Positions 2,311 through 24,219 of a stretch of DNA of 36,608 nucleotides are shown here, in pieces. Location: positions 1-36,608 of IMG/VR virus record IMGVR_UViG_3300009285_001672. One strand, written 5' to 3'. The position numbers and the translations under genes are program-made. Positions within the stretch are counted from its first letter, which is position 1; each line of letters starts with the position of its first letter. Under the pieces are notes generated by a model that ran no database searches, was not told the DNA's origin, and was given only the letters and a program-made list of their open reading frames with translations. The DNA comes from a virus.

Positions 2311-2591
2311 CCACTCTTGAATCTGTTACGGCGAAGATTGAGAAAGCAGTCCCAGATGCAGGGTTTTGGATGAAGGAGCGCCCGATTGATTTCACCCTTG
2401 AGGATGTTCTGTTGGCACTCAGAAACCGAAAAGGAGGATGTGCCACTGTCACGGAAGGCGGTCTGTTTTCCTACGAGAATTATGCGACCTTTGAAACAAA
2501 TGAATCATGCTGGATTATCGGGAAACCCCTATCCGAGCAGAGCGAAGAAACCCTCTCCTTCTTGGATTCTCTTCTCCCTCCTATCGAATGA
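2307..2591 (+). CDS. Conserved phage protein, unknown function
   Basis: 94 residues, acidic, predicted alpha/beta. The pattern FTLEDVLLALRNR (about 29-41) plus IIGKPLSEQSEETLSFLDSLL at the C-terminus resembles small hypothetical proteins found in early regions of many phages (the KPLSEQSEETI-F pattern is familiar to me, with no function attached). ATGA overlaps on both sides; upstream C/T leader TTTCCCCTCCTGCATT. Confidence 0.7.
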   Translation: MTTLESVTAKIEKAVPDAGFWMKERPIDFTLEDVLLALRNRKGGCATVTEGGLFSYENYATFETNESCWIIGKPLSEQSEETLSFLDSLLPPIE

Positions 2592-2920: not shown

Positions 2921-3303
2921 CCGTTCTCGTCTGCCCCGTCACGGCTGGTGTTATCCAACTAAGCACGCACGACCGCCACTACGTCGCCACTTGGCATTGC
3001 GACGAGGTGAAGATCGAGCCGTACAAGGACAAGCGGGATCGCACCCTCCGGCAAAACTCCTATCTGTGGGGCGTCGTCTATACGATCATCGCCGCCGAAA
3101 CCGGCCACACCACCGAGGAGATCCACGAGTGGTGCAAGTGGCACTTTCTCCCGCGTCGCTACGTCACGGTCGGATCGAAGACGTGCGAGGCAGCCAAGAG
3201 CACCACGACGCTCTCCACCGATGAGTTTTCAAAGTACGTTGAGCAGGTGAGAGCGTTCGCAGGGGCAGAGCTTTCAATTTCCATCCCAGACCCGCAGCCA
3301 TGA
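2917..3303 (+). CDS. NinB-like recombination protein
   Basis: 128 residues. The core KRDRTLRQNSYLWGVVYTII, the following GHTTEEIHEWCKWHFLPRR and the late STTTLSTDEFSKYVEQVRAFA plus SISIPDP closely follow the NinB/ORF-family architecture, a single-stranded-DNA-binding recombination mediator of lambda-like phages. No signal sequence, so cytoplasmic. ATGA overlaps with both neighbours place it in one translational unit with the putative nuclease and the HNH protein. Family call from motif memory. Confidence 0.75.
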   Translation: MTVLVCPVTAGVIQLSTHDRHYVATWHCDEVKIEPYKDKRDRTLRQNSYLWGVVYTIIAAETGHTTEEIHEWCKWHFLPRRYVTVGSKTCEAAKSTTTLSTDEFSKYVEQVRAFAGAELSISIPDPQP

Positions 3304-3776
3304 CTCGCATCCCTATCGCCTCAGATCGGCAGAACTTCTCCCAGTATCATTTACAAGATCATGTTCCTTTCTCAATATGGCTCTCCCTATTCCTAAGCCT
3401 ACCAAACACGATAGACCGAATGAGCGAAGAAAAAGAATTATCAGAAGGAAAGACAAGGCTTTTCAGATGGAGCGAAAGGGAAGGTGTGTGGCTTGCGGTT
3501 CCACAGGAGCAACAGTCAAGCACCACCGCAAACGCCGAAGGTTTATTGCTACAAGATGGACAGAAGGAAACGTATGGGAACTCTGCTTGCCCTGCCATAC
3601 CGAAGTCCACGCGAATGGGGAGAAAGCCTTTGTGGAAAGACATCCCATGCTCAAGATGCAACGCAAGGATGGCGTATGCACAGGGGCTGTGTAAGGCGTG
3701 TTACAACTCAGACCATCGTTATGATAATCTTACCGTTCAACAATACACTGCCAAGCATTTCCCCCGCATGGCATGA
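3300..3776 (+). CDS. Frame with C-terminal zinc ribbon, overlapping the HNH gene
   Basis: 158-residue frame starting at an ATGA overlap with the NinB-like gene. Only its ends look coding: the last ~50 residues contain CSRCNARMAYAQGLCKACY, a good CxxC-x(11)-CxxC zinc ribbon, while residues ~26-105 lie over the HNH gene in another frame and are low-complexity. A shorter gene starting at ATG 3615 or TTG 3630 would explain the zinc ribbon. Start therefore uncertain; the CCTATCGCC motif near the 3300 start resembles those of neighbouring genes. Confidence 0.45.
   Translation: MTRIPIASDRQNFSQYHLQDHVPFSIWLSLFLSLPNTIDRMSEEKELSEGKTRLFRWSEREGVWLAVPQEQQSSTTANAEGLLLQDGQKETYGNSACPAIPKSTRMGRKPLWKDIPCSRCNARMAYAQGLCKACYNSDHRYDNLTVQQYTAKHFPRMA
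3377..3694 (+). CDS. HNH endonuclease
   Basis: 105 residues. Very basic N-terminus, then a zinc-binding/HNH layout: C37-x2-C40, H49-H50 with RKRR, C70-x2-C73-H74 and H78, followed by NGEKAFVERHP. This fits the treble-clef HNH nuclease fold used by phage homing endonucleases and packaging-associated nicking enzymes. Preceded by a C/T stretch (TTCCTTTCTCAAT), no SD. It lies inside a longer frame on the same strand (3300-3776), whose zinc-ribbon end overlaps its last 80 nt. Confidence 0.7.
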   Translation: MALPIPKPTKHDRPNERRKRIIRRKDKAFQMERKGRCVACGSTGATVKHHRKRRRFIATRWTEGNVWELCLPCHTEVHANGEKAFVERHPMLKMQRKDGVCTGAV

Positions 3777-4111
3777 CCGACCAACTATCCATCTTCCCGT
3801 CCTTCAGTTCAGTTGTTGCAAAAAATGCACGAACTGATTTCACAGCCAAGGAACTGACCGACGAGGCCATAGAGAGAGCAGGAGAACACGCCAACAAGGA
3901 GTGGCGAAAGGCCGCAAGGGATGCCGTCGTGGAAGTCGCTACAAAGAACCGAGATCTTCTCTTTCGTCTCCTACTGCTCGTCGGGCGTTTGCTTTGGCGT
4001 ACCGTAAAAGGGTTTCTAAGGATGCTATCGTGTCGTAGACCTTCCTCCGCTCGTCCTCACTCCAACGGGTCATTGACTCCGAAACCACCTCACTCCCCCG
4101 TTCGGAACTGA
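3773..4111 (+). CDS. Small phage protein, C-terminus doubtful
   Basis: 112 residues, ATGA overlap with the upstream frame. Residues ~1-62 look like a real helical domain (FTAKELTDEAIERAGEHANKEWRKAARDAVVEVATKNRD, split over two helices), a pattern seen in small early phage proteins. From ~residue 63 the sequence becomes Leu/Arg-rich and then Ser/Pro-rich (SSARPHSNGS), and here it overlaps the convergent gene 3939-4253 by 173 nt. A frameshift or erosion of the original C-terminus is possible. Confidence 0.55.
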   Translation: MTDQLSIFPSFSSVVAKNARTDFTAKELTDEAIERAGEHANKEWRKAARDAVVEVATKNRDLLFRLLLLVGRLLWRTVKGFLRMLSCRRPSSARPHSNGSLTPKPPHSPVRN

Positions 4112-4253
4112 CGTGGGGATTTGAAGAGCAAACGTATTCCACCCAATGGGGAAACATATTCTGGCAGTTGTTCAACTTCTCTTGAAACTTGAGCTGTAAC
4201 GCGGCCACGATACGGTGGTGCATCCGTTCCATCGTTTCGTAGATGTCATCCAA
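3939..4253 (-). CDS. Helical protein at the end of the lysis cassette; start unclear
   Basis: 104 residues from a TTG codon. Amphipathic helices throughout (LLDDIYETMERMHHRIV, FQEKLNN, SEDERRKVYDTIASLETLLRYAK). The frame stays open and coding-like for about 16 codons upstream (reading ISNSELWSSIHTEASRSL) without an ATG or GTG, ending against the stop of the 45-aa TM gene. A +1 frameshift from that TM frame would give one TM-plus-coiled-coil protein of inner-spanin type. Alternatives: TTG start at 4253, or ATG at 4232. Confidence 0.5.
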   Translation of the reverse strand: MDDIYETMERMHHRIVAALQLKFQEKLNNCQNMFPHWVEYVCSSNPHVSSERGSEVVSESMTRWSEDERRKVYDTIASLETLLRYAKANARRAVGDEREDLGSL

Positions 4254-4323
4254 AAGCGAGCGTGATGCTTCCGTATGAATGGAAGACCACAGCTCGCTGT
4301 TGGAGATATTCCTTTCCGTGCCA

Positions 4324-4461
4324 TCAGCATAGCACCCCCGTCAAGCACCTCGGTTGCGTGAAGAGGAGCACCACGCAGAAGATCGCAAGCATGGCGACAT
4401 GGAGCCATATGTGCATGGCGACCCATTTACCCTGCCAGTCCCACGGAAAGAAGGGACGCAA
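4324..4461 (-). CDS. 45-aa single-TM protein (lysis cassette)
   Basis: Too short for usual ORF cut-offs. It starts with TTG just after the stop of the 57-aa gene (4 nt inside the gap). It reads FFPWDWQGKWVAM, then a TM segment WLHVAMLAIFCVVLLF and a Cys-containing tail QPRCLTGVLC. Position between the holin-like gene and the helical gene suggests a holin, antiholin or spanin anchor. Its stop is interlocked with ATG codons of another frame (ATGCTGATG). Confidence 0.45.
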   Translation of the reverse strand: MRPFFPWDWQGKWVAMHIWLHVAMLAIFCVVLLFTQPRCLTGVLC

Positions 4462-4464
4462 GAG

Positions 4465-4638
4465 TTAGATTGCGAGGCCGTCCTTCGTCACGAGACGAAG
4501 AACCACGTTCACCGCGATCAGGGCGTATGCCTGAAGTTCCGGCGAAATCGCATACCCGTATTGATTCTCCACGAACAAGCAGACGGCGGCGACCAAGTTC
4601 ACCCAGAGAGTTTTTGACTGATACCACTTTTTGCCCAT
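4465..4638 (-). CDS. Small membrane protein, putative holin-like
   Basis: 57 residues, too short for usual ORF cut-offs. ATG at 4638 is preceded by a strong C/T leader (TTTTCCCTCCAATTTCTT). Sequence: basic N-terminus KKWYQSKTLW, TM segment VNLVAAVCLFV, a short loop with ISPELQA, second hydrophobic stretch YALIAVNVVL and end RLVTKDGLAI. The SKTLW...PELQA...NVVLRLVTK pattern is typical of a small protein found next to phage endolysins. Directly downstream of the amidase gene, hence lysis-cassette membership. Confidence 0.7.
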   Translation of the reverse strand: MGKKWYQSKTLWVNLVAAVCLFVENQYGYAISPELQAYALIAVNVVLRLVTKDGLAI

Positions 4639-4670
4639 AAGAAATTGGAGGGAAAAGTGCTCTCACTCTA

Positions 4671-5201
4671 TCACAAACCGATCAGCTTTCTCAACCTCTC
4701 AGCCAGTCTCGTCAAGGTGTTCTTCCTCAGTGTGGTCAATTTCCTCTTTTTCTTTGCCTCCTCAGCGGCGTTCAACTGCTCCTTGCGTATATTTACCCTC
4801 TCGACAACGAACGCCTCTGTAAACGCATAGCAGGGGCAAGACGTGGCCTTCACGGAGCTATGCGGAACGATATTCTCGTCAGGAATGCCGTATCTGGCCT
4901 GAAGATTCATGAGAAGCACCGAAAGAGAGTGTATCTGTGCGCCCGTCGGCGTTTCTACCGTGAAGTCCCCCGCCACGCAGACCCCTAAGCTCTTGACGTT
5001 CATTGCTGCATTCCCGCAGTGGTAGCCCACTTTCTCTTCGGGCATCCCGTTCCTCACCTCTGCGTTCTTGTCCACGAAGAAGTGGTACTCCATTCCCCGC
5101 CCCCATTTCTTTTTGTGATACGCCTTCACGCCTTCGTACTGATTCCCCTCTCCGCTGACCGCCGAGTGGTGCAGCACGATGTTGGAAATAGTCCTAGCCA
5201 C
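4671..5201 (-). CDS. N-acetylmuramoyl-L-alanine amidase endolysin (Amidase_2)
   Basis: 176 residues from a GTG overlapping the previous stop (GTGGCTAG); an in-frame TTG at 5237 is the longer alternative. Amidase_2/PGRP fold: IVLHHSAVSG at residues 8-17 (zinc His), EYHFFVD with Tyr39 in the catalytic position, GYHCGNAA at 59-66, GVCVAGDF at 73-80, and PHSSVKATSCPC at 113-124, supplying His and Cys zinc ligands as in T7 lysozyme. It cleaves the MurNAc-L-Ala bond. The C-terminus (about 140-176) is very basic and amphipathic, which may help membrane or wall contact. No signal peptide, so holin-dependent release is expected. Confidence 0.92.
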   Translation of the reverse strand: MARTISNIVLHHSAVSGEGNQYEGVKAYHKKKWGRGMEYHFFVDKNAEVRNGMPEEKVGYHCGNAAMNVKSLGVCVAGDFTVETPTGAQIHSLSVLLMNLQARYGIPDENIVPHSSVKATSCPCYAFTEAFVVERVNIRKEQLNAAEEAKKKRKLTTLRKNTLTRLAERLRKLIGL

Positions 5202-5385
5202 AGCACCCAGAGAGAACGCAATCCAGCACCGACTCAATCCTGTCGTGTTCCTCCTTCGACAATCCCTCTACCTCCAGCTCCGCTCCTATCTGATGCCGGA
5301 CCCATTCGGCCATCGACTGACTTCTGGCCGATACAGCCTCTTGAGCCTTCCCGAGCCAGAACTGGCAGTTTTCGGATTCGATCAT
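5194..5385 (-). CDS. 63-aa acidic helical protein
   Basis: Starts at the ATG overlapping the previous stop (ATGA) and ends overlapping the endolysin start. Residues FWLGKAQEAVSARSQSMAEWVRHQIGAEL then EVEGLSKEEHDRIESVLDCVL form two acidic helices, with CC near the C-terminus. A longer in-frame start at 5472 would run through the upstream gene and is rejected. Unknown function; location in the lysis cassette only. Confidence 0.6.
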   Translation of the reverse strand: MIESENCQFWLGKAQEAVSARSQSMAEWVRHQIGAELEVEGLSKEEHDRIESVLDCVLSGCCG

Positions 5386-5624
5386 CCTATATGGAGTTGA
5401 ATCATGTAGATCATGAATGGAACAACGAAGATCATCATGCACGCCGCAAATCCATACGACCACGCCTTCCACACCTCCAGAGTTTTCACCCTCCCGTTCG
5501 TTAGGGTCACCTTCGTCTCCACCCTCTGCAAGATTTCTTTCAGCACAGCCGTGTCACTTTTCAGGCCATCGACCGCCTCTGAGAAGTAGCTTGCCAGCTT
5601 GTCGAATCCTGATTGCTTGGGCAT
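5382..5624 (-). CDS. Coiled-coil plus C-terminal TM protein (XhlA-like)
   Basis: 80 residues. A soluble N-terminal helix (FDKLASYFSEAVDGLKSDTAVLKEILQRVETKV) is followed by TLTNGRVKTLEVW and one strong TM segment (YGFAACMMIFVVPFMIYMI). This N-in coiled coil with C-terminal TM is the layout of haemolysin XhlA-type proteins encoded before phage holin/endolysin genes. A TACACT box lies 8 nt upstream of the ATG. Confidence 0.7.
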   Translation of the reverse strand: MPKQSGFDKLASYFSEAVDGLKSDTAVLKEILQRVETKVTLTNGRVKTLEVWKAWSYGFAACMMIFVVPFMIYMIQLHIG

Positions 5625-5632
5625 TACCGAAT

Positions 5633-5638
5633 AGTGTA
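5633..5638 (-). promoter_or_regulatory. -10-like box TACACT
   Basis: 8 nt before ATG 5624 of the XhlA-like gene. Confidence 0.4.
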
Positions 5639-5643
5639 GCAGA

Positions 5644-7014
5644 TTACGGAGTCCAGCCGGTCGTGGATTTTCTCGTCAGTGTAAGATAATTCAGCTTCGC
5701 CTTATGTCCTGCATCACTCGTTCCGAAGAGAGCACCGATGGAGAACACCTTTTCCGCGTTCGTCGCCACGTTCGCCGTCCCCGTTCCCGCTACCGTTCTT
5801 CCAGCCACGTCCGTTATCAGCGAGGCCGCGTACGCAACGGCAACCGATGCCCCAGCCGCCGCCGTCCCCATGAGGAACCCGTGAAAATGCCACGAGGTTC
5901 CCGTCGTTCCCGCCGGAAGAGTAATGTCCGCAACGGGAGTGCTCCCCAGCACCCCCTCTATGTGCATCGTGCTTGAGGCATTGATCGTACAAGTCCCTCC
6001 GCATTCAAACTCGTACACTACCCCAGCCACAATATCATTCGCGGCGATTGTGTAGGTTCCTGTATCGAATGAAGTGAGCGTGGTCGGGTTTGTGAGCTCT
6101 GTGGATGGGGTATACTCCGTCTTCACTGTCTCCACCGTCACCGTCATCGTCGGAGGAGTCGGATTCAAGATATTGAAGTACGTCCCGGCGTACTGCACGC
6201 AGTAGGTCTGTCCACTCTTAATATCATTCGCCACCACGGCTGTAGCACCGTTGTCCTTTTTGATGCCCTTTGCCCCCCAGCTATTCACGTTCAGCGTCGC
6301 CGCATCCGTATTGTCGTGATTCGCCGTGAAGAAGAACACCTGCCCCGTGGCGTAGGCCGTCGCGTTCGTCGTCACCGTCAGCGTGTAGGCATTGCCAGAT
6401 CCGGCACCCGCAGCCGAAAGCGGAGCGGCATTGTGCAGTGCCGTGATCTTCGACTCCCGTGCGAGGTCTTGCAGGACGGATGCGCCAACCTGAATGTAAC
6501 TCCGGTCGTCCGTAATCTGGCCGTCCGTAATGGAAGTGTCGCTCGCAGGAACGGCAATGGTCGCAAGCGAGATCGCGTTTGCGGGGGTCGCAGGTGCGGA
6601 AGGTGCAGGGTCCGGCGTTCCTGCAAGGACTTCGATGATGGCGATATTCGAGGCAGTCCCGTTGGGATCTACCGACACGTCGATCCGAAGAACTACCCTG
6701 TCAACTCTTGGGTTCGTGTCATCCGCTGCGGTCACTATTTCGTTCGAGACTGCCGTGCTCTCAAACCACGTCTTGTACGTGGCCCCATGCGTCAGGTTCG
6801 TGTTCGTGATTTCGATGAGTGCGATACCGGCGGCCACATCCACGCTCATGTTCGCGCCCGCTGCCTTCTGTGTCACAGCGAAGGCAGTCCCCACTCCCTG
6901 CACAACCCCTTCCGTAAGCAGGTTCGTCTCAATCCGCAGAAGATCGTAGTCGTTGACTCCGGGGAGGGTTGTTGCCGCAGAGGAACTGCCGACGGGATAC
7001 GCTCGCAAAGCCAT
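5644..7014 (-). CDS. Tail fibre / baseplate fibre protein
   Basis: 456 residues. N-terminal region MALRAYPVGSSSAATTLPGV and LLRIETNLLTEGVV are followed by QKAAGANMSVDVAAGIALI and a VDRVVLRID segment; this is the pattern of siphophage upper-fibre or receptor-binding proteins in which a short beta-structured attachment domain precedes Thr/Ala-rich beta repeats. The remainder is Thr/Ala/Gly-rich with almost no Cys or Trp, as expected of trimeric fibre shafts. The -10-like TATACT is 8 nt from the ATG. Confidence 0.75.
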   Translation of the reverse strand: MALRAYPVGSSSAATTLPGVNDYDLLRIETNLLTEGVVQGVGTAFAVTQKAAGANMSVDVAAGIALIEITNTNLTHGATYKTWFESTAVSNEIVTAADDTNPRVDRVVLRIDVSVDPNGTASNIAIIEVLAGTPDPAPSAPATPANAISLATIAVPASDTSITDGQITDDRSYIQVGASVLQDLARESKITALHNAAPLSAAGAGSGNAYTLTVTTNATAYATGQVFFFTANHDNTDAATLNVNSWGAKGIKKDNGATAVVANDIKSGQTYCVQYAGTYFNILNPTPPTMTVTVETVKTEYTPSTELTNPTTLTSFDTGTYTIAANDIVAGVVYEFECGGTCTINASSTMHIEGVLGSTPVADITLPAGTTGTSWHFHGFLMGTAAAGASVAVAYAASLITDVAGRTVAGTGTANVATNAEKVFSIGALFGTSDAGHKAKLNYLTLTRKSTTGWTP

Positions 7015-7022
7015 TCACGGAC

Positions 7023-7028
7023 AGTATA
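7023..7028 (-). promoter_or_regulatory. -10-like box TATACT
   Basis: 8 nt upstream of the fibre gene ATG at 7014, in the 17-nt gap after the 121-aa gene. Preceded by GC, in keeping with GNTANANT boxes elsewhere in the window. Confidence 0.45.
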
Positions 7029-7031
7029 GCA

Positions 7032-7397
7032 CTACTTGGCTTTTTCCTTCACCACCTCGGCCTTCCCCAGCATGTCGAGCAATTGTTCGGAGACGACCAG
7101 CCCGTACATGGGCACCTCCTGCCCGCCGCCTCGCACCTTGTTGTGCTCTACGAGTTTCTTCAGGAGGTCGATTTGATAGTCCGTGAGTTCGATCTTTCTG
7201 TCCCCTTGCCCGATCTTCTGCCCGGCGGCGTACACATGGGCGTTCTCTTCCTTCCCCTTGAGCACGTTCATGTTGTGGGCGATCATGATGTAGACCAAAA
7301 GCACGGTCTTGAGCGTGAGGTCTTGGCCGCTCTCTTTGATAGGTTCCCCTCTGAAATCGGTTAGCACTTGGGAAATGTCCAGAGACTTCTTCTGCAT
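7032..7397 (-). CDS. Tail-region protein, unknown function
   Basis: 121 residues from the ATG at 7397, chosen because it is preceded by the C/T leader CACTTTCCCCATTCATTC; the open frame reaches 7439 but would start inside a promoter-like box. Begins KSLDISQVLTDFRGEP and contains LTDYQIDLLKKLVEH, a pattern familiar from small siphophage proteins encoded near tail genes. Predominantly alpha-helical, charged, no TM. Confidence 0.65.
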   Translation of the reverse strand: MQKKSLDISQVLTDFRGEPIKESGQDLTLKTVLLVYIMIAHNMNVLKGKEENAHVYAAGQKIGQGDRKIELTDYQIDLLKKLVEHNKVRGGGQEVPMYGLVVSEQLLDMLGKAEVVKEKAK

Positions 7398-7439
7398 GAA
7401 TGAATGGGGAAAGTGCCCTGAGTCTACCACCCCTGTCAA

Positions 7440-8222
7440 CTATGCCAGGCCATCCCATGTTTTCATGTTGGCAATCGCCAACCCATCCACCGTCTTCACA
7501 GATGCCTGAGCCAGACCAAGCGTGGTTTTGATGGCAGATCCAGCCGAACCCGCAAAAGGAACAGTCGTTGAGAACACCGCCGATCCGTTGTTCGTCAGGT
7601 CGTTATTGTTCGCAGTCATGTCCAGCAGGTCGTTGTCGAGCTGCCAGTACGCGACGAGGTTTGCTTCGTCTCCTACCAGCTCAACGCTCCTGTTGTCTGA
7701 AATCTCCGTACTTGTGCGTATGTCGCTCCACACGCGCACCTCGTCGATCAACCCGTCAAACGTTTCTCCGAGGAAGTACCCTATCTGAAAAGCCGCAGTG
7801 CCGTTGTAAATGCTCGTTGCAAGGCTACTGATCGTTCCCACGCTGGAGTCGTCTACAAACACCTCCATAGTCCCCGCACTCGCATCGTAGGTGAAAGCAA
7901 GGTGATAATACGTCCCTGCATTCAGCGTGTAGGCGACAGTCCCGCTTGTTGCAGCCGTTCCGTTTGTCGAGATGTTCCCGTAGAGATACATCGTGTCCGA
8001 AAGATTGATGTATCCGACCGCGTAGCTCCGCTGGTTGCCCGTATTGAGCCACTTGCTCACGAACGGACGGTACGTATCCGTCGCAGGAGCACTTTCGAGC
8101 TTCACCCAGAGTTCAATCGTGAAATCACCCGTGATGTCCAGCCCCGTCTGACTGCCGTCCGTGATGGACAGGTATTGAGTGGAATCCCGCTCAAGGTCGA
8201 TGGAGTGGGTGTTGAGCGACAT
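7440..8222 (-). CDS. LamG / concanavalin A-like lectin tail protein
   Basis: 260 residues. One LamG (Laminin_G_3) domain over about 5-185: SIDLERDSTQYLSI, FTIELWVKLES, YHLAFTYDASAGTMEVFVDD and GLIDEVRVWSDIRT are characteristic strands. It should bind carbohydrate on the host surface. The last ~30 residues contain three approximate 11-residue repeats (IKTTLGLAQAS, VKTVDGLAIAN, MKTWDGLA), a C-terminal signature of phage tail-tip proteins. TGATG coupling with the upstream 61-aa gene. Confidence 0.85.
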   Translation of the reverse strand: MSLNTHSIDLERDSTQYLSITDGSQTGLDITGDFTIELWVKLESAPATDTYRPFVSKWLNTGNQRSYAVGYINLSDTMYLYGNISTNGTAATSGTVAYTLNAGTYYHLAFTYDASAGTMEVFVDDSSVGTISSLATSIYNGTAAFQIGYFLGETFDGLIDEVRVWSDIRTSTEISDNRSVELVGDEANLVAYWQLDNDLLDMTANNNDLTNNGSAVFSTTVPFAGSAGSAIKTTLGLAQASVKTVDGLAIANMKTWDGLA

Positions 8223-8407
8223 CAGGCGAGAGCAGAAAGCAGCTTCGCGGCAGTAGAGCCGGAGATTTCAAAGCTCTTGCTCGGAAGAATGATTTTCGCC
8301 TTCCAGTCTCCATCCTTCCATATCTGCATACTGATCGTCTTGTTCCCCGCGTATCGCTTTCCGATCGCGTGCATGATCTGCTCAATGGAGGTCGTGAACG
8401 TGGGCAT
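8222..8407 (-). CDS. 61-aa tail-region protein
   Basis: Small protein starting at TGATG with the large tail gene and ending at TGATG with the LamG gene, so translationally coupled on both sides. Predicted helix (TTSIEQIMHAIGKRYA) followed by beta strands (TISMQIWKDGDWKAKIIL) and a C-terminal helix. Unknown function; possibly an adaptor or chaperone for the fibre proteins. Confidence 0.7.
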   Translation of the reverse strand: MPTFTTSIEQIMHAIGKRYAGNKTISMQIWKDGDWKAKIILPSKSFEISGSTAAKLLSALA

Positions 8408-11370
8408 CAGACATGCGTGATGTAATTCGGGCTTACGTTAAAGAAAAGATCCTCCGCCGTGAGCGCTGTTCCCACAACACGGATCGCCACATCCGTCGTC
8501 GTCGGTTGCGTGTGCGTTACATCCCCTGCCGTCTCCGAGACATAGACTTTCTCGTTTACCGTGAATGCAGGAAACGCAGCAGCCCGCACCTTGCCCCACA
8601 CCAGCATCTTCGTCGGCTCTGTATCATTACCCGCAAGCACGCAGATCCCCAGCATCCCCCGGCAATCTCCATCCGCTGCCGTAATGACGTTCGCGTCTGC
8701 CAGAAGCCACTTGCCCGCAGTCGCATCGAGACAGCACAAATCCCCGAACGCCAGCGTAGCGCCCGCCGTTCCGTTCTCCACGATGCCGGAGTATTTCCCG
8801 TCGTCACTGAGAAGCGTGTCCAGCACAAGCCCCGCATTCTCTCCAAGGTCTAACGCGCCCGTCAGCGTCCCGCCCGCGACGGTCAGAATCGTAACGCCTT
8901 CGATGGCCGCTACCCCTGCCGAGACGCGGGTAAACGTCGTATCGGAAGCATGACCCAGATTGATTTCAGCGAACTGAGGGGTGGAAGCCGTGCCGAGCCC
9001 AACCTGTGTGGCAGTAAGACCTGTCAGCGCGGAGCCGTCCACGGCGGGCAGATGCGCCGACCCGTCCAGTTGAACAAGGTTGCTCGCTCCCGTCCCTACT
9101 GCGAGCCCGTCTTTCAGCGTCTTGCTGTCGGCTCCGTCCCACTGCGGGACGTAGTTGGCGGTATTGCTCGCAGGGCCTAGCACGTCTCCTCCTCCGGCAG
9201 GGCTGCCCCAGCTACTGTTGGTCCCATCAGTGGTGAGGTATTTCCCATTGTTCCCCGTCTGTGAGGGAAGCAGGGCATCAATAGCAGCCTGAGCAGTCGT
9301 CTCTCCCGTTCCCCCCTTCGAGATGCCAATCGCCGTGGCATCCCACGTCCCCGTCCCGACCGTCCCGACCGTTGTGATATTCGCGGAACCAGCCCACGTC
9401 GAGAGTGCCGTGTTCTCAACGCTCCCGAGTCCAACGTCGGCGCTCGTCAGGCTCAGAATCGTTTTCACGTTCGCGGCGGTCAGCTCCTCTATGTCTCCGG
9501 CACCCGCAGTGATTCGTCCCAAAATCCGTGATGTTGCCGAAACGTCCTGAATCATCGCGTAGGTGATGGAGCCTGCCGCAGGGGAGAATCCTGTGACGCT
9601 TACCGTTCCCTGTACCGACCAGTCAATCGCCGCCGTGGTTCCATCGGGGAAGTACAGAATGCGAGCCGAGGGGTCAATCGTCTTCTTCGGCGTGGCCGCC
9701 ATGTCGAGAATCGGCGTCGTGTACGTGAACGGGCCGCCAGTTGTATTCTCATCCTTGAATCCGAACTGCACGCCATCCGCTGAAATGGTCATTTGAACAT
9801 CCGATCCCGCCGACCCTCCGGCGAACAGCATGAGTTCCTTCGTCGCCGAAGTCACCCCCACGGCTAGGTTCCCGCCCGCGTCAAGATCCTCCGATTGCAC
9901 ATAGAGGTATCCATCGTACGGCAGCGTGTACCCCCACCCCATGTCATTTCCATCGTATGCCGAACAGTTGATTCCAGCGTCGATGTACCGTAATGAGGTT
10001 TCGTTGAGATATTCCGTATCGGGTTCCGCTACCAAGTCCGATGTGCCGGTCGTTGCGAGGTTCTGCACGATTATCTCTACCCACGGCGTAGCCGAACTCG
10101 AATCAAAGTTCCCTTGAAAAATCCCCGCGTTCCCCTCCGTCTTCGCCCATGCGTAGAAGTTCGTCGTCTTCACTCCTGAAATATCGCCGCCAACCGACAT
10201 TGCGGGAGGATGCGTGAGGTCGTGCTCCAACTCCTTCACCGTCCGCTTCAGATCCTTAATTTCCTTCGAGTCCAGATAGGAGGCGGTGACGTAGACCCCG
10301 GACTCCGCAATCGTAAACCGCATCCGCTCCTGCCCGTTCTCGTCCACGTCCACAGTGATTTCGGCTATGCGCTTCGCCCCGGAAATTGTCCGGTTCGGCG
10401 TCACGATATTCACCGTCACCGTGTCTCCCACCACCACGTCCCCATACTGAAGACCGCTTACCACGCGGGTCCCCGTGACCGCGTTGAACTTCTTGGTCGC
10501 AAGCGTCGGTTCCATTCGCAAGTCCGTGATCGGATTGGCCCGTTGCGAAACTTCGGCTTGCGTCATGGCGTCGAGTGTTGTCTGATCGTTCGCCTCGTTG
10601 AACACCTTCCGGGCGATGAGGACTCCGTAGAGGGTCTGGCTGGCAGCGTCCTCTTTCGTGCTCGTCAGCCCTCCCAAAGCCGAGGATATGCCGATGAGCC
10701 GGTTCGCCATGTCCTGTCCGTCTTCCCCCAGATCCAGCTCATTCACGTTTGATCCCGGCTGGCCGTCCTGCCGGAAGCTCAAGGTGATCGTCGCGCTCTT
10801 ATCCGTCCCGAGGGCCGACACGAAGTTGAAAGCCCCGGCATCGTCAATCTCAAACTCCGCATCGTGGGCTTTCGCAAGCTCCTCCCACGCCTTCGAGATT
10901 TCCCTTTGATCCAGCGTCAAATCCCTTGTGGAAGTCACCCCGCCCGTGCCTGTCGTGATACCCGTCGCCCCGTCCGTCGCGTTCGTAGCCGTGAGGAGCC
11001 CGAAAGCCTCCGTTGACCCCTGCCCGTTGAATTGCTCCCTTACACCCGTTTCACGCTTCGCAAAGAGCTGGAGCATCCCGACACAGACGACTTCGATTTC
11101 ATCCCCTATCTGTTTCGTGCCTTCGATGTACCCGTACCACACTGCTTCGTAGGTATTCGTATTGTCCCGTTTCCTGCGGTAGAGCCGTGCCCGCCTGTAC
11201 TGCCGGAGGTTCGTCGCCGTGGCCTTGAGGTTGGCCTTGTGCATGGAGAAGGTCATCTTCCCCGGAGCATTGACCCGCTTGCTCCAGCCCTTCACGGTCA
11301 TATCCCCCGTGGAGAGGACGGTCGTTGTCGATGAATCGCCCGTCGTGGTGTACAAAGCTATGCGATACAT
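8407..11370 (-). CDS. Large tail-tip protein: baseplate-hub-like N-terminus with fibre C-terminus
   Basis: 987 residues. N-terminus (~1-380) resembles tail-associated hub proteins: YRIALYTTTGD, GWSKRVNAPGKMTFSMHK, RARLYRRKRD, YGYIEGTKQIGDEIEVVCVG. Beyond this come beta-rich regions, then a fibre module with GLGSVENTALSTWAG, TTVGTVGTGTWDATAIGISK and GGTGETTAQAAIDALLP, typical of phage fibre shafts. The last ~150 residues (GTAGATLAFGDLCCLDATAGKWLLADAN...) look like a compact beta domain of the tail-tip/head-fibre class. One gene combines hub and fibre. Confidence 0.8.
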   Translation of the reverse strand: MYRIALYTTTGDSSTTTVLSTGDMTVKGWSKRVNAPGKMTFSMHKANLKATATNLRQYRRARLYRRKRDNTNTYEAVWYGYIEGTKQIGDEIEVVCVGMLQLFAKRETGVREQFNGQGSTEAFGLLTATNATDGATGITTGTGGVTSTRDLTLDQREISKAWEELAKAHDAEFEIDDAGAFNFVSALGTDKSATITLSFRQDGQPGSNVNELDLGEDGQDMANRLIGISSALGGLTSTKEDAASQTLYGVLIARKVFNEANDQTTLDAMTQAEVSQRANPITDLRMEPTLATKKFNAVTGTRVVSGLQYGDVVVGDTVTVNIVTPNRTISGAKRIAEITVDVDENGQERMRFTIAESGVYVTASYLDSKEIKDLKRTVKELEHDLTHPPAMSVGGDISGVKTTNFYAWAKTEGNAGIFQGNFDSSSATPWVEIIVQNLATTGTSDLVAEPDTEYLNETSLRYIDAGINCSAYDGNDMGWGYTLPYDGYLYVQSEDLDAGGNLAVGVTSATKELMLFAGGSAGSDVQMTISADGVQFGFKDENTTGGPFTYTTPILDMAATPKKTIDPSARILYFPDGTTAAIDWSVQGTVSVTGFSPAAGSITYAMIQDVSATSRILGRITAGAGDIEELTAANVKTILSLTSADVGLGSVENTALSTWAGSANITTVGTVGTGTWDATAIGISKGGTGETTAQAAIDALLPSQTGNNGKYLTTDGTNSSWGSPAGGGDVLGPASNTANYVPQWDGADSKTLKDGLAVGTGASNLVQLDGSAHLPAVDGSALTGLTATQVGLGTASTPQFAEINLGHASDTTFTRVSAGVAAIEGVTILTVAGGTLTGALDLGENAGLVLDTLLSDDGKYSGIVENGTAGATLAFGDLCCLDATAGKWLLADANVITAADGDCRGMLGICVLAGNDTEPTKMLVWGKVRAAAFPAFTVNEKVYVSETAGDVTHTQPTTTDVAIRVVGTALTAEDLFFNVSPNYITHV

Positions 11371-11371
11371 A

Positions 11372-12304
11372 TCAGATCCACGTACTGCGGAAGCTCACGG
11401 ACATTTGCCCCGTCAGGTCATCCGGCGTTTCGTCGAAGATCGTCAGGATGTTCGCCCCCGGCTCAATGAAGATCCATTCAGAGGTGGTCGTAAGGTTCCC
11501 CGTCACGTCCGTTTCCGTCACTCCGCTTGTCTTGGTCGCTGTCTTTGCCGCAACGTCGATTTCCAACGTATCCCCTGCCGCAAGAGAAACACCCGCCCCG
11601 CCGCTGAAGTCCATTGATTTCCCTGTCGTCGAATTGCCGACAACGGGATTCTCCAGCGGGCCGGTCAGAGTAATCACGGGGGCCGTCCCCCAGTTCCCGC
11701 TGTTCGTTCCCGTCATTTCGGCACCCGTATCGTCCTGAAGCTCCGGCAATGCCCCGTCCTTCAGCTCCGGCAAAGCATCATCCTGAAGGGTCATCGTCGT
11801 GAAGGTATAGGACTCCGGGCCCGTCACCGTCGTGAGGGTTTGCGAGTACAGGGCGGGGTCTTTCGCGTAGAGAACGAACGAGAACTTCCGGGCCTCTACC
11901 AATGCCGTATCCATCAGTTCGATCTTCGGAGGCTCAAGAACCTTGGCGTAGAGCTGCTTTGAAAGCCCGTCCTCGTCCGTAATCAGCACGAGGAGATACC
12001 CGTCCGCGTCGTCATACGCCTGAGCTACGGGCAGGGCCAGCTCCTCCTTAAGGGCTTTCTCCATCGTCACCCTCGCAGATTGCGACGTAGACCACATTTC
12101 GCCCTCGAAAGGGAGAATGCGAGCCCCGTAGTATGAGAGGCTGTCTTCCGTCCCGTGATCGGCCTGCTTTGCGGAATCCGTCTTTCGAGTAGAGAGCGTG
12201 GAGAGGATTTCAGGCGTGTTCTTCAGGACGTAGAAGCTCGTCGTCGTGAGATTCTGATTGAGAAGGAGACTGCCGATGGTCACTTCCAGTTCATTGGCGG
12301 GCAC
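11372..12304 (-). CDS. Distal tail protein (Dit-like)
   Basis: 310 residues from GTG 12304, which lies exactly 6 nt from a TAGAAT box; another in-frame GTG lies at 12310. Located between tape measure and hub as expected for Dit. Contents: short N-terminal beta domain, SYYGARILPFEGEMWSTSQ, helix VTMEKALKEELALP, LYAKVLEPPKIELMD and RKFSFVLYAKDPALYS, the Dit/phage_tail belt pattern; the rest is a beta-sandwich that may be a carbohydrate-binding extension. Builds the hexameric ring at the tail end. Confidence 0.75.
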   Translation of the reverse strand: MPANELEVTIGSLLLNQNLTTTSFYVLKNTPEILSTLSTRKTDSAKQADHGTEDSLSYYGARILPFEGEMWSTSQSARVTMEKALKEELALPVAQAYDDADGYLLVLITDEDGLSKQLYAKVLEPPKIELMDTALVEARKFSFVLYAKDPALYSQTLTTVTGPESYTFTTMTLQDDALPELKDGALPELQDDTGAEMTGTNSGNWGTAPVITLTGPLENPVVGNSTTGKSMDFSGGAGVSLAAGDTLEIDVAAKTATKTSGVTETDVTGNLTTTSEWIFIEPGANILTIFDETPDDLTGQMSVSFRSTWI

Positions 12305-16925: not shown

Positions 16926-17552
16926 TCACAGCGCCTTCATGAACTTCGCTATGTCCGCTGAGAAGGTCTTTGCCCGTCGCTTGAAAGCATTCGTCATCGG
17001 ATACCTTCCCTTCGTCCCCTTCTTTCTGATTGCATCCTGAATCGCCAAGAGGATGAGGAAGTCCCTTACTTGAGGATCGAGGGGCTTCTGCTTTGCCTTC
17101 TTCCCTCCACCCGTCTTCTTCCGGGCGTTCTTCCGTATCGCGTAGGCGGAAAACAATTTCTTCTTCAGAGGTCCATCGAAAGAAAGGTTTACGGGAAGGG
17201 AACGCACCAGCCCTTTCCTCCGGGCCCAGCCGCAGATCGCGGACAAAGGCGGAGCTTTCCCCCCCGGTCTTCGCCCGAACTCCACGATCACCGCATACTC
17301 AAGAGGAGTGAAGACGACCACCCGCACCTTCGAGTTGCCGACGATGAACGGAGCGGAGCGGGTCACGCTCCCCATGAGCATTCCGGTATCGAAGGCTTTG
17401 ACCCGTAACAACTCAGCTTTGATTTCCCCCACGGTGTCGTCGGCCCATGTTGCGAGGGCGTACACGGCCTTCCGCTGGAGAAGTTCGGTCGCGGCTTTCA
17501 GTTTTCTCTGGACGTTCCCTACGCTCTGTGGTGTAAATCGAAACTTAGCCAC
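16926..17552 (-). CDS. HK97 gp10-like head-tail protein
   Basis: 208 residues from GTG 17552, exactly 6 nt after TACAAT. Contains helix (LQRKAVYALATWADDTVGEIK), FDTGMLMGSVTRS, VVVFTPLEYAVIVEFGRRPG and PLSAICGWARRKG, all typical of the HK97_gp10/minor-tail Z-like family. It has an unusually Lys/Arg-rich C-terminal half, longer than the usual ~130 residues. Part of the head-tail interface. Confidence 0.85.
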   Translation of the reverse strand: MAKFRFTPQSVGNVQRKLKAATELLQRKAVYALATWADDTVGEIKAELLRVKAFDTGMLMGSVTRSAPFIVGNSKVRVVVFTPLEYAVIVEFGRRPGGKAPPLSAICGWARRKGLVRSLPVNLSFDGPLKKKLFSAYAIRKNARKKTGGGKKAKQKPLDPQVRDFLILLAIQDAIRKKGTKGRYPMTNAFKRRAKTFSADIAKFMKAL

Positions 17553-17558
17553 ATCCCC

Positions 17559-17564
17559 ATTGTA
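17559..17564 (-). promoter_or_regulatory. -10-like box TACAAT
   Basis: Exactly 6 nt before GTG 17552 of the gp10-like gene; a 57-nt gap separates it from the stopper gene. Confidence 0.55.
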
Positions 17565-17609
17565 GCAAACTTCGCGTAGGACGCGCGTTCTTCCTTTCAG
17601 GCTCTCCGA

Positions 17610-17939
17610 CTACACCCCGCCTGCTATCGCCTCTGTAATCGCAACTATGTGGTGGATTTCGGCACTGTCCATCGGCTTCACCACCTCTATCACCTCGTAG
17701 ATCCTGCTTTCGTGGGAAATCCGGTCCCGAATCGCAATGTCCGTCCCCTTCGGCAGGGCGAAAACGGTGGAGAGAGAAGTCGCATGTTGCGTCTTCTCAA
17801 GGTTCCTATTGCTTGCTCGTCTCATCACCCGGCACTTTGAGGAAGTCCCTGTTGACCATGTTTCCTTGCTCGTCTTGCCCGTCGAATCCACCGTTCGCTT
17901 CTGAATCGTGCAGGTGTCGATCAATAAGTCTTCGATCAT
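17610..17939 (-). CDS. Head-tail stopper (phage_H_T_join-like)
   Basis: 109 residues from the ATG overlapping the adaptor stop (ATGA); a start 15 nt further up is less likely. IEDLLIDTCTIQKRTVDSTG, then a WSTG strand, CRVMRRASN and a C-terminal IYEVIEVVKPMDSAEIHHIVAI match the small beta-barrel stopper that closes the filled head (SPP1 gp16/lambda FII type). Confidence 0.75.
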   Translation of the reverse strand: MIEDLLIDTCTIQKRTVDSTGKTSKETWSTGTSSKCRVMRRASNRNLEKTQHATSLSTVFALPKGTDIAIRDRISHESRIYEVIEVVKPMDSAEIHHIVAITEAIAGGV

Positions 17940-19589: not shown

Positions 19590-20468
19590 TTATTCACAAA
19601 TGCACACTCCAGCACCGTAGACGGCTGCGCTACACTTTCCGATACTTCCGTCCGTCTTCCCACAGAGGATGGTACCCGATCCGAACCCATTGAGACGCAA
19701 TGACGCTCCAGACATCGCCCCGCCTACTCTAAGGTTATTCGTGACGGTCGCACCAGAAGCCGTGAGAAGATCATTCAGATAGGCGTCTCCATCAATCGAA
19801 AGCGTTCCGCTTGCAGACAATGCCCCCGTCGAAAGAACGCCCGAACCCGTCAGTGTCCCTTCTTGCAGGACGAGCCCGCCCGTCATCGTGTCGCCGGCGA
19901 CATTGACATAGCGCGCGTCGGATTGTGCAAGGGAAAGCGTAGTCAAGCTATCCCATGTCAGATTTCCTGCCCCATCGTTCGTAAGAACGGTTCCTGCGCT
20001 GTCCGTAGCAGGCATCGAGTAAGCCAATCCATTGAAGGTGGCAGAGGTCCCAATGACCAGCGATGTACCGGACATGACCTTCTTTACGGTCAAGTTGTTG
20101 TTCACCAGCGACCCGGATTCCGTGACCAGATCATTGAGGTACACGTTACCATCAATCGAGAGCGTCCCCGAAGCGGCGGTGTTCCCCGTCGTATTCAGAT
20201 TCCCGGTAACGGTAGCTCCTCCATTCAAATAGGCGAGGCCATCTACTGACAGCACACCGCTCGCGGACAGACTATCTTCCGTCTTCATACTTCCCGTTGC
20301 CGTGATGTTGTATCCGGTGACATCCCCGTGAGCATTAAAGTCACCACGCCCCGTAATGGCTCCATACACGATGAGTGCTGCCACGCCCGCACCGGCAGTA
20401 CCGATGTACACTTTCTTGGCAACGCTCATGTTCCTGACATCCAGCCAGCCTCCGGGTTGTGCGACCAT
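19590..20468 (-). CDS. N-terminally anchored beta-helix repeat protein
   Basis: 292 residues. N-terminal segment PGGWLDVRN then KVYIGTAGAGVAALIVYGAI, a single TM-like segment. From ~50 on the protein consists of imperfect repeats of the SGTLSIDGNVYLNDL type, predicted as left-handed beta-helix/fibre shaft, with a GLAYS...NLTWDS insert. It ends in a Cys pair (GVCICE). It shares the KVYIG anchor and PGG with the next upstream gene. Likely head-fibre or vertex spike. Confidence 0.7.
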   Translation of the reverse strand: MVAQPGGWLDVRNMSVAKKVYIGTAGAGVAALIVYGAITGRGDFNAHGDVTGYNITATGSMKTEDSLSASGVLSVDGLAYLNGGATVTGNLNTTGNTAASGTLSIDGNVYLNDLVTESGSLVNNNLTVKKVMSGTSLVIGTSATFNGLAYSMPATDSAGTVLTNDGAGNLTWDSLTTLSLAQSDARYVNVAGDTMTGGLVLQEGTLTGSGVLSTGALSASGTLSIDGDAYLNDLLTASGATVTNNLRVGGAMSGASLRLNGFGSGTILCGKTDGSIGKCSAAVYGAGVCICE

Positions 20469-20488
20469 AGTGAAGAGGAGAAAAGAGA

Positions 20489-21043
20489 TTAGTCACAGGT
20501 GAACGTCTTCGTGCCACAGGGTTCCACTTTAATACGCGCGATACCGGAGGCATCACCGCTCACGGTTGCCCCCGATCCGTTGTACCAAGAGAACGTCAGG
20601 TACTTCCCCGGCCCAACAATAATCCTGTTCGGCAGCTTCACGCTCCCGGACCCGCGAAGGGTCTGCCAGGTATCTGCAACCGGCGTCAACTCTGCAACTT
20701 TCGTTGCAATCGTCGCCCCAGTGCTACCGGTCGCACCGACGCCGATAATCAATCTTGAAGCGGGAGCGGGAACAGAATCGAAGAAGGCATAGGAGAGATC
20801 ATCAGCGAGAATCACGCCTGAATCCGAGCGAGGCCACGCCCATTCTCCGATCTGGGCTCCAGACCTTGTAACAGGGTCAAGATCCACCTCAGCGTACAGG
20901 GATGCCTCCCTACCTTGAAACGTCCCGTAGAGAAGAATGGCTCCGAGAGCGGTCGCCGCAAGGCCGATGTAGACCTTCCGCGAGATGGTCGCGCTCTGCA
21001 TGGTCGCAGTACCCCCCGGAGATGTGACAGTGGTGACATCCAT
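20489..21043 (-). CDS. Anchored structural protein paralogous in its N-terminus to its neighbour
   Basis: 184 residues. N-terminus TSPGGTATMQ then SRKVYIGLAATALGAILLYG, a TM-like anchor very similar to that of 19590-20468, followed by a short linker GREASLYAEV and a beta-rich globular part (DDLSYAFFDSVPAPASRLIIG, ITVGPGKYLTF-like strands) ending CGTKTFTCD, again with a terminal Cys pair. Located directly after the capsid gene, so a virion surface protein is likely. C/T leader. Confidence 0.7.
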   Translation of the reverse strand: MDVTTVTSPGGTATMQSATISRKVYIGLAATALGAILLYGTFQGREASLYAEVDLDPVTRSGAQIGEWAWPRSDSGVILADDLSYAFFDSVPAPASRLIIGVGATGSTGATIATKVAELTPVADTWQTLRGSGSVKLPNRIIVGPGKYLTFSWYNGSGATVSGDASGIARIKVEPCGTKTFTCD

Positions 21044-21076
21044 AGTTTCAGATGGAAGAGAAATACGAACCTATGT

Positions 21077-22258
21077 TCACAGACTCACAGTCGTGGCGAC
21101 GATGTGATCCACACCAACCCCCAGCACTTGCAGGAACCAGCTCCCGTACATGGAGTAGCGAAGCTCCAGCGTGGAGTCACGCGGCTCCTCAACCGGGCCA
21201 CGGAGCACGTCACCTGCCCTCCAGCCCTTCGTGATTTGCGGGAGAGTGACGATGGCGATACTCGTTGTCGGCATGTCCTTATCGGAGATGAACGTCAGCT
21301 CGGAACCTTCGTAGAAGAACGAGGTCGCGTTATCCGTTCCGACCACTCCCGACTTCTGAGCTACGCCGTTCTTGAACTGCTCCATGAGCGGGTTGAACTT
21401 TCTGAGGTTCGCAGGAGCCAACAGAATGTGCGTCGGGTTTCCACCGGCCGCCCAGCAGGTCTTCAGCGACTCTTGCACAACGGTGATCGGAGAGGTGACG
21501 CTCGTTGCATCATACGTCAGCGCCGTCCGCTTCCGTCCCGTAGAGTTCGTAAGCTGCTCCAGCACTCCAGCCGTGGTGTAGGGACTGGTCTTCGTCTTTG
21601 CGGACTTCACGCCCTTAATGGACGTGCTGTAAAGTCCCTTGGCGATCCGGTTCATGGCTTCCATGATGAGCTGAGGCTTCTGCTCGAATGTCTTGCGTGC
21701 CTGAAGCTGATCGTCGAACTCTTGGTCAATCGTAGCGACGAATCTCTGGCAGTAGTTCGTCCACTTGCCCGTGTTCTCAGCGAACGATTCCACGTTCTTG
21801 AGGTCGGTCGGGTTGATAGCCGAACCGATCACGGTGAAGGCGGTCGTGTCCACATGGGCAGCTCCAGAAGTGGAACCATGCCCACGGGCCACAACGTCAA
21901 TCGTGTACGCAGAGCGGTCAACGTCGCTCACGATTACCTGCTCGCTCTCCACCTCCATAATGTCGCCAATCGTGAGGACTCCGATAGCGGCAGACGCCAT
22001 CGGAAGGTCTGTCGTGGTCGTCCCATCGGCCCATCCGGTCCCGACACCGTCTCCAACAACACCCGTCTTGGAGTTCACCGAACGGTCGAAGATGTCGAAC
22101 TCAAAGTTATCGACCGCTGACGGATGAGCGGGGATCATGTTATAGAACGTACCCTCGTTTTTCCCCACGGGGATCTTGAGGGCCATTCCGATGATGAGCG
22201 GATCTATAAGCGTATTCGTGTCATCCAGACTCCAGTGCATACCGAGATCGAAGGCCAT
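21077..22258 (-). CDS. Major capsid protein (HK97 fold, SU10/DUF5309-like)
   Basis: 393 residues. Located between scaffold and decoration/connector genes. Features include GTFYNMIPAHPSAVDNFEFDI, VVARGHGSTSGAAHVDTTAF, RFVATIDQEFDDQLQARKTF, the long E-loop-like region with MNRIAKGLYS, and C-terminal SELTFISDKDMPTTSIAIV and ELRYSMYGSWFLQVLGVGVD, the P-domain/A-domain pattern of SU10-type capsid proteins. No cleavage site or protease domain is obvious. The leader is a C/T tract with a poly-T. Confidence 0.85.
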   Translation of the reverse strand: MAFDLGMHWSLDDTNTLIDPLIIGMALKIPVGKNEGTFYNMIPAHPSAVDNFEFDIFDRSVNSKTGVVGDGVGTGWADGTTTTDLPMASAAIGVLTIGDIMEVESEQVIVSDVDRSAYTIDVVARGHGSTSGAAHVDTTAFTVIGSAINPTDLKNVESFAENTGKWTNYCQRFVATIDQEFDDQLQARKTFEQKPQLIMEAMNRIAKGLYSTSIKGVKSAKTKTSPYTTAGVLEQLTNSTGRKRTALTYDATSVTSPITVVQESLKTCWAAGGNPTHILLAPANLRKFNPLMEQFKNGVAQKSGVVGTDNATSFFYEGSELTFISDKDMPTTSIAIVTLPQITKGWRAGDVLRGPVEEPRDSTLELRYSMYGSWFLQVLGVGVDHIVATTVSL

Positions 22259-23167: not shown

Positions 23168-24025
23168 TCATTCTGCAAACGTGTCCCGCCAGTATCGAAT
23201 GGCACTCTCATAGAGGTCTGGTCTTTCCTTTTGCAGTTGCTCAAAACTCACAGGCTGCGGAGTGTGCCCACAATTCGGATGATACGGCGGAAGTGGATCG
23301 TTCATCAGATCGACGTACTTTCTCCTCTCCCACTCGTTGCAAATATCCTCACCGTCAATATCCCGCAGCGTTGGGATTATCATATATCTGCGTCCAGCGC
23401 CAAGTGATTGTGCCTTCGCCCCGAGGCTGTAAGCTGTTACATTTTGCGTGCGAACCAGCATGTTCGTGTAGCTCTCAAGGCTCCATTTTCTCCCGAAACC
23501 GTTTCGCCCCTTGAGCACCGTGAACCCTTCCTTGCGGAGATCGTTCATGATTTCCTGCTGAGTCCGTGTTGCGGAAGTCCCCTGTACGAATCCCTTGAAG
23601 ATCCTCTCTTGAATCTTTCGCTTGTCCAAGGCGGCATTCTTCGCTGACTTCTTCAGCCCGATCATCGTTGTCCCGAAGTCTCCCCATGCTTGTTCAAGGA
23701 AGACGTTGACCATTTCCCGCGAGACACCGGAAAAGGACACGCCGAACTCCTTTTCCTTTATCTTCTTCATCTTCTCATACGTTTCCTCTGCCCCAGCGTC
23801 CATGATCGGCGGCAGGGCTTCCTTCGCCCACTGCTTCGCTTCCCTGTCCATTGCCGCCACGATACGGTCAATCACGAGCAGGTGCTTTCTACGGAAGGTC
23901 GCAAAGGAACTTCCCTTGCCCATCTTCTCAATCACGGCAATCAATTCCCGCTGTGCCTCTTTGAACATACGCAGGATGTCGTCGTTGCTCACGCCGTCCT
24001 TTTTCAGTTGTTGTTCGACGGTCAT
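23168..24025 (-). CDS. MuF-like minor head protein
   Basis: 285 residues. Helical N-terminal half, then KGFVQGTSATRTQQEIMNDLRKEG, and the F-domain motif near the C-terminus: RDIDGEDICNEW, followed by PPYHPNCGHTPQP, which is the classical Mu F/SPP1 gp7 signature (D-G-x-x-C ... P-P-x-H-P-x-C-x-H). TGATG coupling with the upstream TM gene. A terminator at 23095-23123 follows. Minor capsid protein involved in DNA ejection/head morphogenesis. Confidence 0.9.
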   Translation of the reverse strand: MTVEQQLKKDGVSNDDILRMFKEAQRELIAVIEKMGKGSSFATFRRKHLLVIDRIVAAMDREAKQWAKEALPPIMDAGAEETYEKMKKIKEKEFGVSFSGVSREMVNVFLEQAWGDFGTTMIGLKKSAKNAALDKRKIQERIFKGFVQGTSATRTQQEIMNDLRKEGFTVLKGRNGFGRKWSLESYTNMLVRTQNVTAYSLGAKAQSLGAGRRYMIIPTLRDIDGEDICNEWERRKYVDLMNDPLPPYHPNCGHTPQPVSFEQLQKERPDLYESAIRYWRDTFAE

Positions 24026-24219
24026 CAGAAGAGCGGGAACGTCATCGCCGCACGCACCGTAGCAAGCAGAGTGAACGTCATCAGGAGGAAGGTGATCCAG
24101 ACCATGCCGAACATCAGGAGGACTTCGCCCATTCGATAACTCAGCAGGGTATCAATCGCCCGCTTCACCCGCTCTTCATCGAGCTGCCCGGCGGTGTCAA
24201 CGGTGTGCCAGTTGCTCAC
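24025..24219 (-). CDS. 64-aa TM protein between portal and MuF
   Basis: Soluble helix DEERVKRAIDTLLSYRMGEV followed by one strong TM segment LLMFGMVWITFLLMTFTLLATV. Overlaps both the portal stop (ATGA) and MuF start (TGATG). A membrane protein coupled to portal/MuF is unusual; unknown function. Confidence 0.7.
   Translation of the reverse strand: MSNWHTVDTAGQLDEERVKRAIDTLLSYRMGEVLLMFGMVWITFLLMTFTLLATVRAAMTFPLF

Follow-up and report, generated by a model that had tools for sequence, protein, structure and literature searches.

The window analysed here is an entire IMG/VR virus record of 36,608 bases. Its late genes lie on the minus strand, in the order large terminase, SPP1-type portal protein, a 64-amino-acid membrane-type protein, minor head protein, a scaffold-like protein, an SU10-type major capsid protein, P2, P1, a 129-amino-acid protein, small genes and Dit. 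P1 and P2 had been singled out in an earlier note made from the sequence alone, and both ORFs are indeed present on the minus strand at the positions it gave (P2 at 20489-21043, P1 at 19590-20468). The relevant features are as follows.

21077-22258, minus strand: major capsid protein, a conserved neighbour (Pfam SU10_MCP, E 3e-13)
21044-21063, minus strand: P2 leader, CU-rich, without a Shine-Dalgarno sequence
20489-21043, minus strand: P2, 184 aa, first gene behind the major capsid gene; N-terminal module followed by an ectodomain that its relatives keep
20906-21043, minus strand: shared N-terminal module of P2, residues 1-46, with SPGG, RK and VYIGLAATALGAILLYGTFQG
20495-20518, minus strand: C-terminal Cys pair of P2, C176 and C183
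20469-20488, minus strand: P1 leader, CU-rich, without a Shine-Dalgarno sequence
19590-20468, minus strand: P1, 292 aa, carrying the module a second time in front of another, repeat-built ectodomain
20343-20468, minus strand: shared N-terminal module of P1, residues 1-42, with PGGW, KK and VYIGTAGAGVAALIVYGAITGR
19590-20342, minus strand: P1 ectodomain, residues 43-292, akin to the repeats in giant patescibacterial proteins
19596-19664, minus strand: Cys-rich end of P1, with C269, C279, C289 and C291
19176-19565, minus strand: 129-aa head-module protein, next after P1 in the window

The P1 and P2 genes are not in the tail module: they come directly after the capsid gene, and the Dit gene is more than 7 kb further on. 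The 64-aa protein encoded between the portal and minor head genes (24025-24219, minus strand) has a strong membrane segment and is found at the same place in all four related loci described below (L003, L006, L021 and L063); no convincing match was seen in Pfam or NCBIfam for the copies scanned.

The leaders of the capsid, tail-tube, P1, P2 and 129-aa genes are pyrimidine-rich and have no Shine-Dalgarno sequence, the tail-tube gene being identified by its place rather than by a family match; those of the portal, tape-measure and Dit genes are not pyrimidine-rich. The summed pyrimidine fraction of the P1 and P2 leaders is 4.15, against 2.94 expected (permutation p = 0.0003 over all genes, p = 0.005 among those with a gap of at least 9 bases), for a gene list that is small and hand-chosen and omits some genes, such as the scaffold gene of L021. 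With the capsid and tail-tube genes excluded from the ranking, P1 shares first place with the 129-aa gene and P2 is fourth among 23 genes of the window, while P2 ranks 3rd of 16 in L003, 1st of 12 in L021 and 1st of 5 in L063. Because these CU-rich leaders are like those of the capsid and tail-tube genes, P1 and P2 are read as being expressed in the class of abundant structural proteins, as far as leaders can indicate it. No promoter-like site was found before P1 or P2 on their strand. Across the five related phages, CU-rich leaders lacking a Shine-Dalgarno sequence are seen on the major structural genes, with several presumably low-copy genes differing.

Searches with the capsid, portal and terminase proteins brought out three further virus records (L003, L006 and L063) and a provirus (L021) with the same head module; capsid identity to the window is 51% for L003, 55% for L006 and 56% for L021. 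A member of the P2 family lies directly behind the capsid gene in four of the five loci (the window, L003, L021 and L063, the last of these truncated where its contig stops). In L006 the capsid gene directly adjoins a 128-aa gene, the head module being otherwise collinear, and a P2-family profile has no match in the whole L006 record. The window thus holds two copies of the shared module, L003, L021 and L063 one visible copy each, and L006 none. P1 is seen only in the window; it was not found in the L003 and L006 records, and L063 ends before its place. The 129-aa-type gene comes next after P1 in the window, after P2 in L003 and L021, and after the capsid gene in L006. Window P2 is 33-35% identical to its homologs in L003 and L021 and 50-52% to that in L063, compared with 51-61% toward L003 and L006 for the capsid, portal, terminase and 129-aa proteins, so that by these sequence identities P2 changes faster than its neighbors. 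Among the head-completion genes of L021 there is another small gene (17279-17620, plus strand) whose product has a strong hydrophobic segment at its N-terminus.

Neither P2 nor P1 gave a match when scanned singly against IMG/VR, and nothing was found for either among 50,697 phage records at E limits of 0.01 and 1; at E up to 10 there were short tail-fibre-like matches, with a best E of 0.3 among the best 10 of 497 records. Nor did P2 score convincingly against Pfam, PHROG, NCBIfam or PDB, and when its profile was run on the order of the provirus host (170 genomes) and on the phylum (392), it matched only in the provirus genome. Distant SU10-type capsid homologs occur in 31 Planctomycetota genomes besides G004, about 8% of those sampled, most of them in a neighborhood of their own; behind the capsid gene at such loci (for example L033-L051) are genes of about 220 and of 140-160 aa. 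The SPGG module was seen by eye at none of the 19 loci L033-L051, 18 of which have ORFs behind the capsid gene. Two other origins for P2 were tried and set aside: duplication of the 129-aa neighbor (profile comparison probability 0.1) and a type IV pilin-like protein (PilX_N at 12.4 vs 25.5 bits for P2 in Pfam, with N_methyl listed for neither P1 nor P2).

About 45 N-terminal residues are common to P1 and P2, consisting of V..PGG, a basic pair, KVYIG, an uncharged Gly/Ala-rich stretch, YG and GR. Over the first 50 residues the two give a local score of 90, against a maximum of 55 in 2000 hydropathy-preserving shuffles, and a BLASTP alignment of the two anchors covers 40 aa at 37.5% identity (E 4.6e-6 in a small set); their common start is therefore a homologous module, as had been proposed. 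The description of the anchors as nearly identical was overstated, protein identity being 38-40% over 40 residues, with 40 of 81 bases alike in the core. When the homologs from L003 and L021 are included, all six pairwise 50-residue comparisons score above every one of 2000 hydropathy-preserving shuffles. Past residue 50 no signal remains between P1 and P2 (score 39 against a shuffle mean of 35.8, and reached by 129 of 500 shuffles), which bears out the claim that they diverge completely behind the anchor; P1 scores 67 with the L021 homolog over the same part (reached by 3 of 500 shuffles), probably reflecting a common Thr/Ser/Gly-rich make-up. The same anchor, which the earlier note had suggested looking for in other phages, does occur together with the P2 ectodomain at the same place in L003, L021 and L063. 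This is a real and recurring modular gene family behind the capsid gene, with one striking exchange of the ectodomain. The proposal of a modular surface-attachment system stands in so far as one module carries two unrelated ectodomains, attachment to a surface being plausible.

PGG is present in all five copies and the SPGGW before the hydrophobic arm is largely kept, the W being absent from P2 and the S from P1; P1, L003, L021 and L063 have PGGW where P2 has PGGT, and KVYIG is found only in P1 and P2. From the retention of PGGW in P1, the PGGT of P2 and the restriction of KVYIG to these two sequences, we infer that the module was duplicated in the window's lineage, before P2 lost its tryptophan.

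Searched without the module in 379 Patescibacteria genomes (the phylum of L022, a Falkowbacteria MAG) and 392 Planctomycetota genomes, the ectodomain of P1 matches 11 of the former at E <= 1e-5 and none of the latter. The best match has an E of 1.3e-24 and 46% identity over 194 aa, with single units reaching up to 73%. These relatives lie within ORFs that can reach several thousand residues, for example a 3672-aa ORF in L076. In the four whose starts were read (L076, L077, L079 and L080), the protein opens with a cytoplasmic-looking domain of about 100 residues, has a hydrophobic segment near residue 105-120 and continues in repeats that show the elements of P1, a layout from which they are read as surface proteins. 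The combination of a cytoplasmic domain, a membrane-type segment and beta-type repeats is an odd design; the giant ORF of L076 lies at 1127-12145 on the minus strand, and the N-terminal domain of L079 has weak HTH matches. P1 has 19 residues before its hydrophobic segment where the giant proteins have a domain of about 100, and it looks, by these sequence relationships, like a fusion between a phage module and a patescibacterial-type ectodomain. Nothing related to the P1 ectodomain was found among 72,556 plasmids. An origin by copying from the phage's own tail fibres was rejected, as the ectodomain matched no ORF in the window, in the records of L003 and L006, in the L021 region, in L063 or in five other loci, and so was a bactofilin assignment (PF04519, E 1.1e-5, 26.0 bits against a curated cut-off of 27.9). 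The weak phage-family matches of P1 include tail-fibre profiles (E about 0.02), and it carries a ARYVNVAGDTMTG motif, which we take to be fibre-typical.

The cysteines of the two proteins follow different patterns. The C-terminal pair of P2 (C176, C183) is kept in L003 and L021, L063 ending before it. The L003 and L021 ectodomains have four Cys each, two near the start and two C-terminal, and the first two are also present in L063 before the contig end; window P2 has lost both upstream Cys while retaining the C-terminal pair. This joint loss suggests, on the strength of four sequences, that the upstream Cys of the relatives form a disulfide pair, which would call for an oxidizing environment such as the periplasm, the cell surface or the released virion. 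That both proteins end in a Cys pair holds for P2; P1 has four Cys (269, 279, 289 and 291), the first two resembling a Cys loop of its patescibacterial relatives, so that the C-termini of P1 and P2 are probably not homologous.

An uncharged segment of 17-24 residues follows the basic residues in all five copies, with hydropathy above 1.6 over 17 residues in P1, P2 and L021. Its hydrophobicity is borderline: on the biological scale the five copies run from +0.23 to +3.16, compared with -2.87 for the 64-aa neighbor, and the L021 copy has five consecutive Gly. Just behind the segment, L003 and L021 have AQA-A, resembling a signal-peptidase site; the AxA is not kept in P2 or L063 (RxA). AlphaFold2 models of P2 (three sequences, mean pLDDT 44.8) and P1 (single sequence, mean pLDDT 45.8) have no helix in the segment, which is uninformative at such confidence, and they bear as little on the beta helix (P1) and globular beta fold (P2) proposed in the earlier note; in the P2 model, likewise of low confidence, the ectodomain is beta-rich rather than helical. 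No convincing PDB sequence match linked either protein to a known decoration-protein fold.

L021, the nearest provirus carrying the P2 family, is part of a 169-kb contig from a Schlesneria (Planctomycetota) MAG; an integrase gene is found about 25 kb beyond the capsid gene. The provirus flanks carry a DUF1559 gene near 9 kb, a DUF7133/cytochrome c gene near 60 kb and a PQQ protein gene near 144 kb, which we take to be planctomycete-like, though the contig may be chimeric or misbinned. The tetranucleotide comparison is ambiguous for the window (0.48 with the planctomycete flanks; 0.20, 0.57 and 0.09 with three patescibacterial stretches). A lake enrichment has been described that contains planctomycetes together with phages predicted to infect them and a Candidatus Peribacter genome (PMC9040852), and this co-occurrence makes contact between planctomycetes and Patescibacteria plausible.

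The reading favored here, to which a probability of roughly 45% is given, is that P1 and P2 are late, abundant decoration or fibre proteins displayed on the head through a shared docking module. The SPGGW tail, basic pair and Gly/Ala-rich hydrophobic arm would dock them to the capsid lattice or to another head component, with the C-terminal part pointing outward. P2 would be the older member, P1 having arisen in the window's lineage when the module was copied and joined to a beta-repeat ectodomain like those of giant patescibacterial proteins, so that the head would bear a second payload, perhaps an adhesive one. Presence in the virion, docking through the module and a purpose in adhesion are what we infer. 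Head display is favored by the position directly behind the capsid gene in four of five loci, the common start with a swapped C-terminal part, the capsid- and tail-tube-like leaders and the lack of a promoter-like site of their own. Also consistent with head display are the absence from L006, variable presence being usual for decoration and head-fibre genes, the tail-fibre matches and ARYVNVAGDTMTG motif of P1, the borderline hydrophobicity of the segment, and a conservation of SPGGW beyond the needs of a plain membrane anchor. Against this, P2 has no convincing family match and the leader test hangs on a small, hand-chosen gene list. A hydrophobic arm is also unusual for a head protein: the words "transmembrane" and "disulfide" are never used in the available text of a review of decoration proteins (PMC7602432). 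In a search of largely open-access literature, no paper brought phage head fibres, decoration proteins and transmembrane segments together, and none treated a transmembrane helix along with the decoration and major capsid proteins of a siphovirus. The joint loss of the two upstream Cys fits a disulfide pair and hence export, and the cellular relatives of P1 carry their repeats behind a membrane-type segment.

A possible alternative, somewhat less favored than head display, is that P1 and P2 are single-pass (signal-anchor) membrane proteins, or secreted ones, synthesized late in infection or during lysogeny, with a short cytoplasmic tail, a membrane segment and a disulfide-bonded ectodomain outside the cytoplasm. 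They would then alter the surface of the infected cell, for example blocking superinfection or changing cell-cell adhesion. Such a layout agrees with the uncharged segment behind basic residues in all five copies, its hydropathy in P1, P2 and L021, the two Cys of L003, L021 and L063 that are both missing from window P2, the order of N-domain, hydrophobic segment and repeats in the patescibacterial relatives, the AQA-A of L003 and L021, and the accessory distribution among loci. It sits poorly with the borderline insertion energy and the five consecutive Gly of L021, the absence of AxA from P2 and L063, the capsid/tail-tube-type leaders and the fixed place within the head operon, and it leaves the conserved SPGGW tail unexplained. 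The head-operon position and hydrophobic N-terminus would also suit a head-assembly or ejection factor: P2 would be a prohead membrane tether, or an internal pilot protein entering the host membrane at infection, with P1 as its diverged duplicate; a second small membrane-segment protein does lie between the portal and minor head genes in all five loci. This is judged unlikely, as L006 lacks both genes in an otherwise collinear head module, the P2 ectodomain looks beta-rich rather than helical (at low confidence) and P1 is intact with its own leader. Gly/Ala-rich hydrophobic segments are alike in composition, and the N-terminal likeness might be put down to convergence, but this is very improbable: not one of 2000 hydropathy-preserving shuffles comes up to the score of any of the six pairs, and the copies agree in PGG and in its distance from the segment.

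If head display is correct, phages of a poorly known host group would show differing ectodomains by way of an exchangeable head docking module, one of them drawn from the repertoire of giant patescibacterial proteins; this would provide a possible short docking tag for capsid display, and a concrete gene for testing phage-mediated contact between planctomycetes and episymbiotic bacteria. A far more speculative and rather doubtful extension of these sequence relationships is that a planctomycete-type phage shows an imitation of a patescibacterial surface protein on this module, on the head or on the infected cell, in which case it could bind the partner of such proteins, or link phage, planctomycete and episymbiont.

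Among known systems, the head fibres and decoration proteins phi29 gp8.5, SPP1 gp12 and T4 Hoc are among those closest to what is proposed for P1 and P2, being head-associated and accessory, with one end that docks and another that projects; according to the review, phi29 fibres and Hoc are dispensable and may help attachment to cells (PMC7602432). P1 and P2 differ from gp8.5, gp12 and Hoc in having no sequence match to them, in their hydrophobic Gly/Ala-rich arm and Cys pairs, and in that their place in the virion is putative. Klebsiella phage receptor-binding proteins reportedly likewise combine a conserved N-terminal module with unrelated C-terminal parts and horizontal exchange, but they attach to the tail, where the P1 and P2 genes instead follow the capsid gene. 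The giant Patescibacteria proteins share with P1 the repeat unit SGTLSVDGLAYLNGGATVTGNL, TFP..G.VL..DGAG.L.W, RYV..GDTMTGGL and Cys loops; they are much longer, cellular, and begin with an N-terminal domain of about 100 residues in place of a short SPGGW tail. Bactofilin resembles P1 in the weak match below its curated cut-off. New here are the P2 family at a fixed place with a second, swapped copy in the window only, the patescibacterial relatives of the P1 ectodomain, the CU-rich leaders and the joint loss of the upstream Cys of P2. A shared docking end with an exchanged display end is of a known kind, while its place, its hydrophobic arm and its patescibacterial-type payload are unusual.
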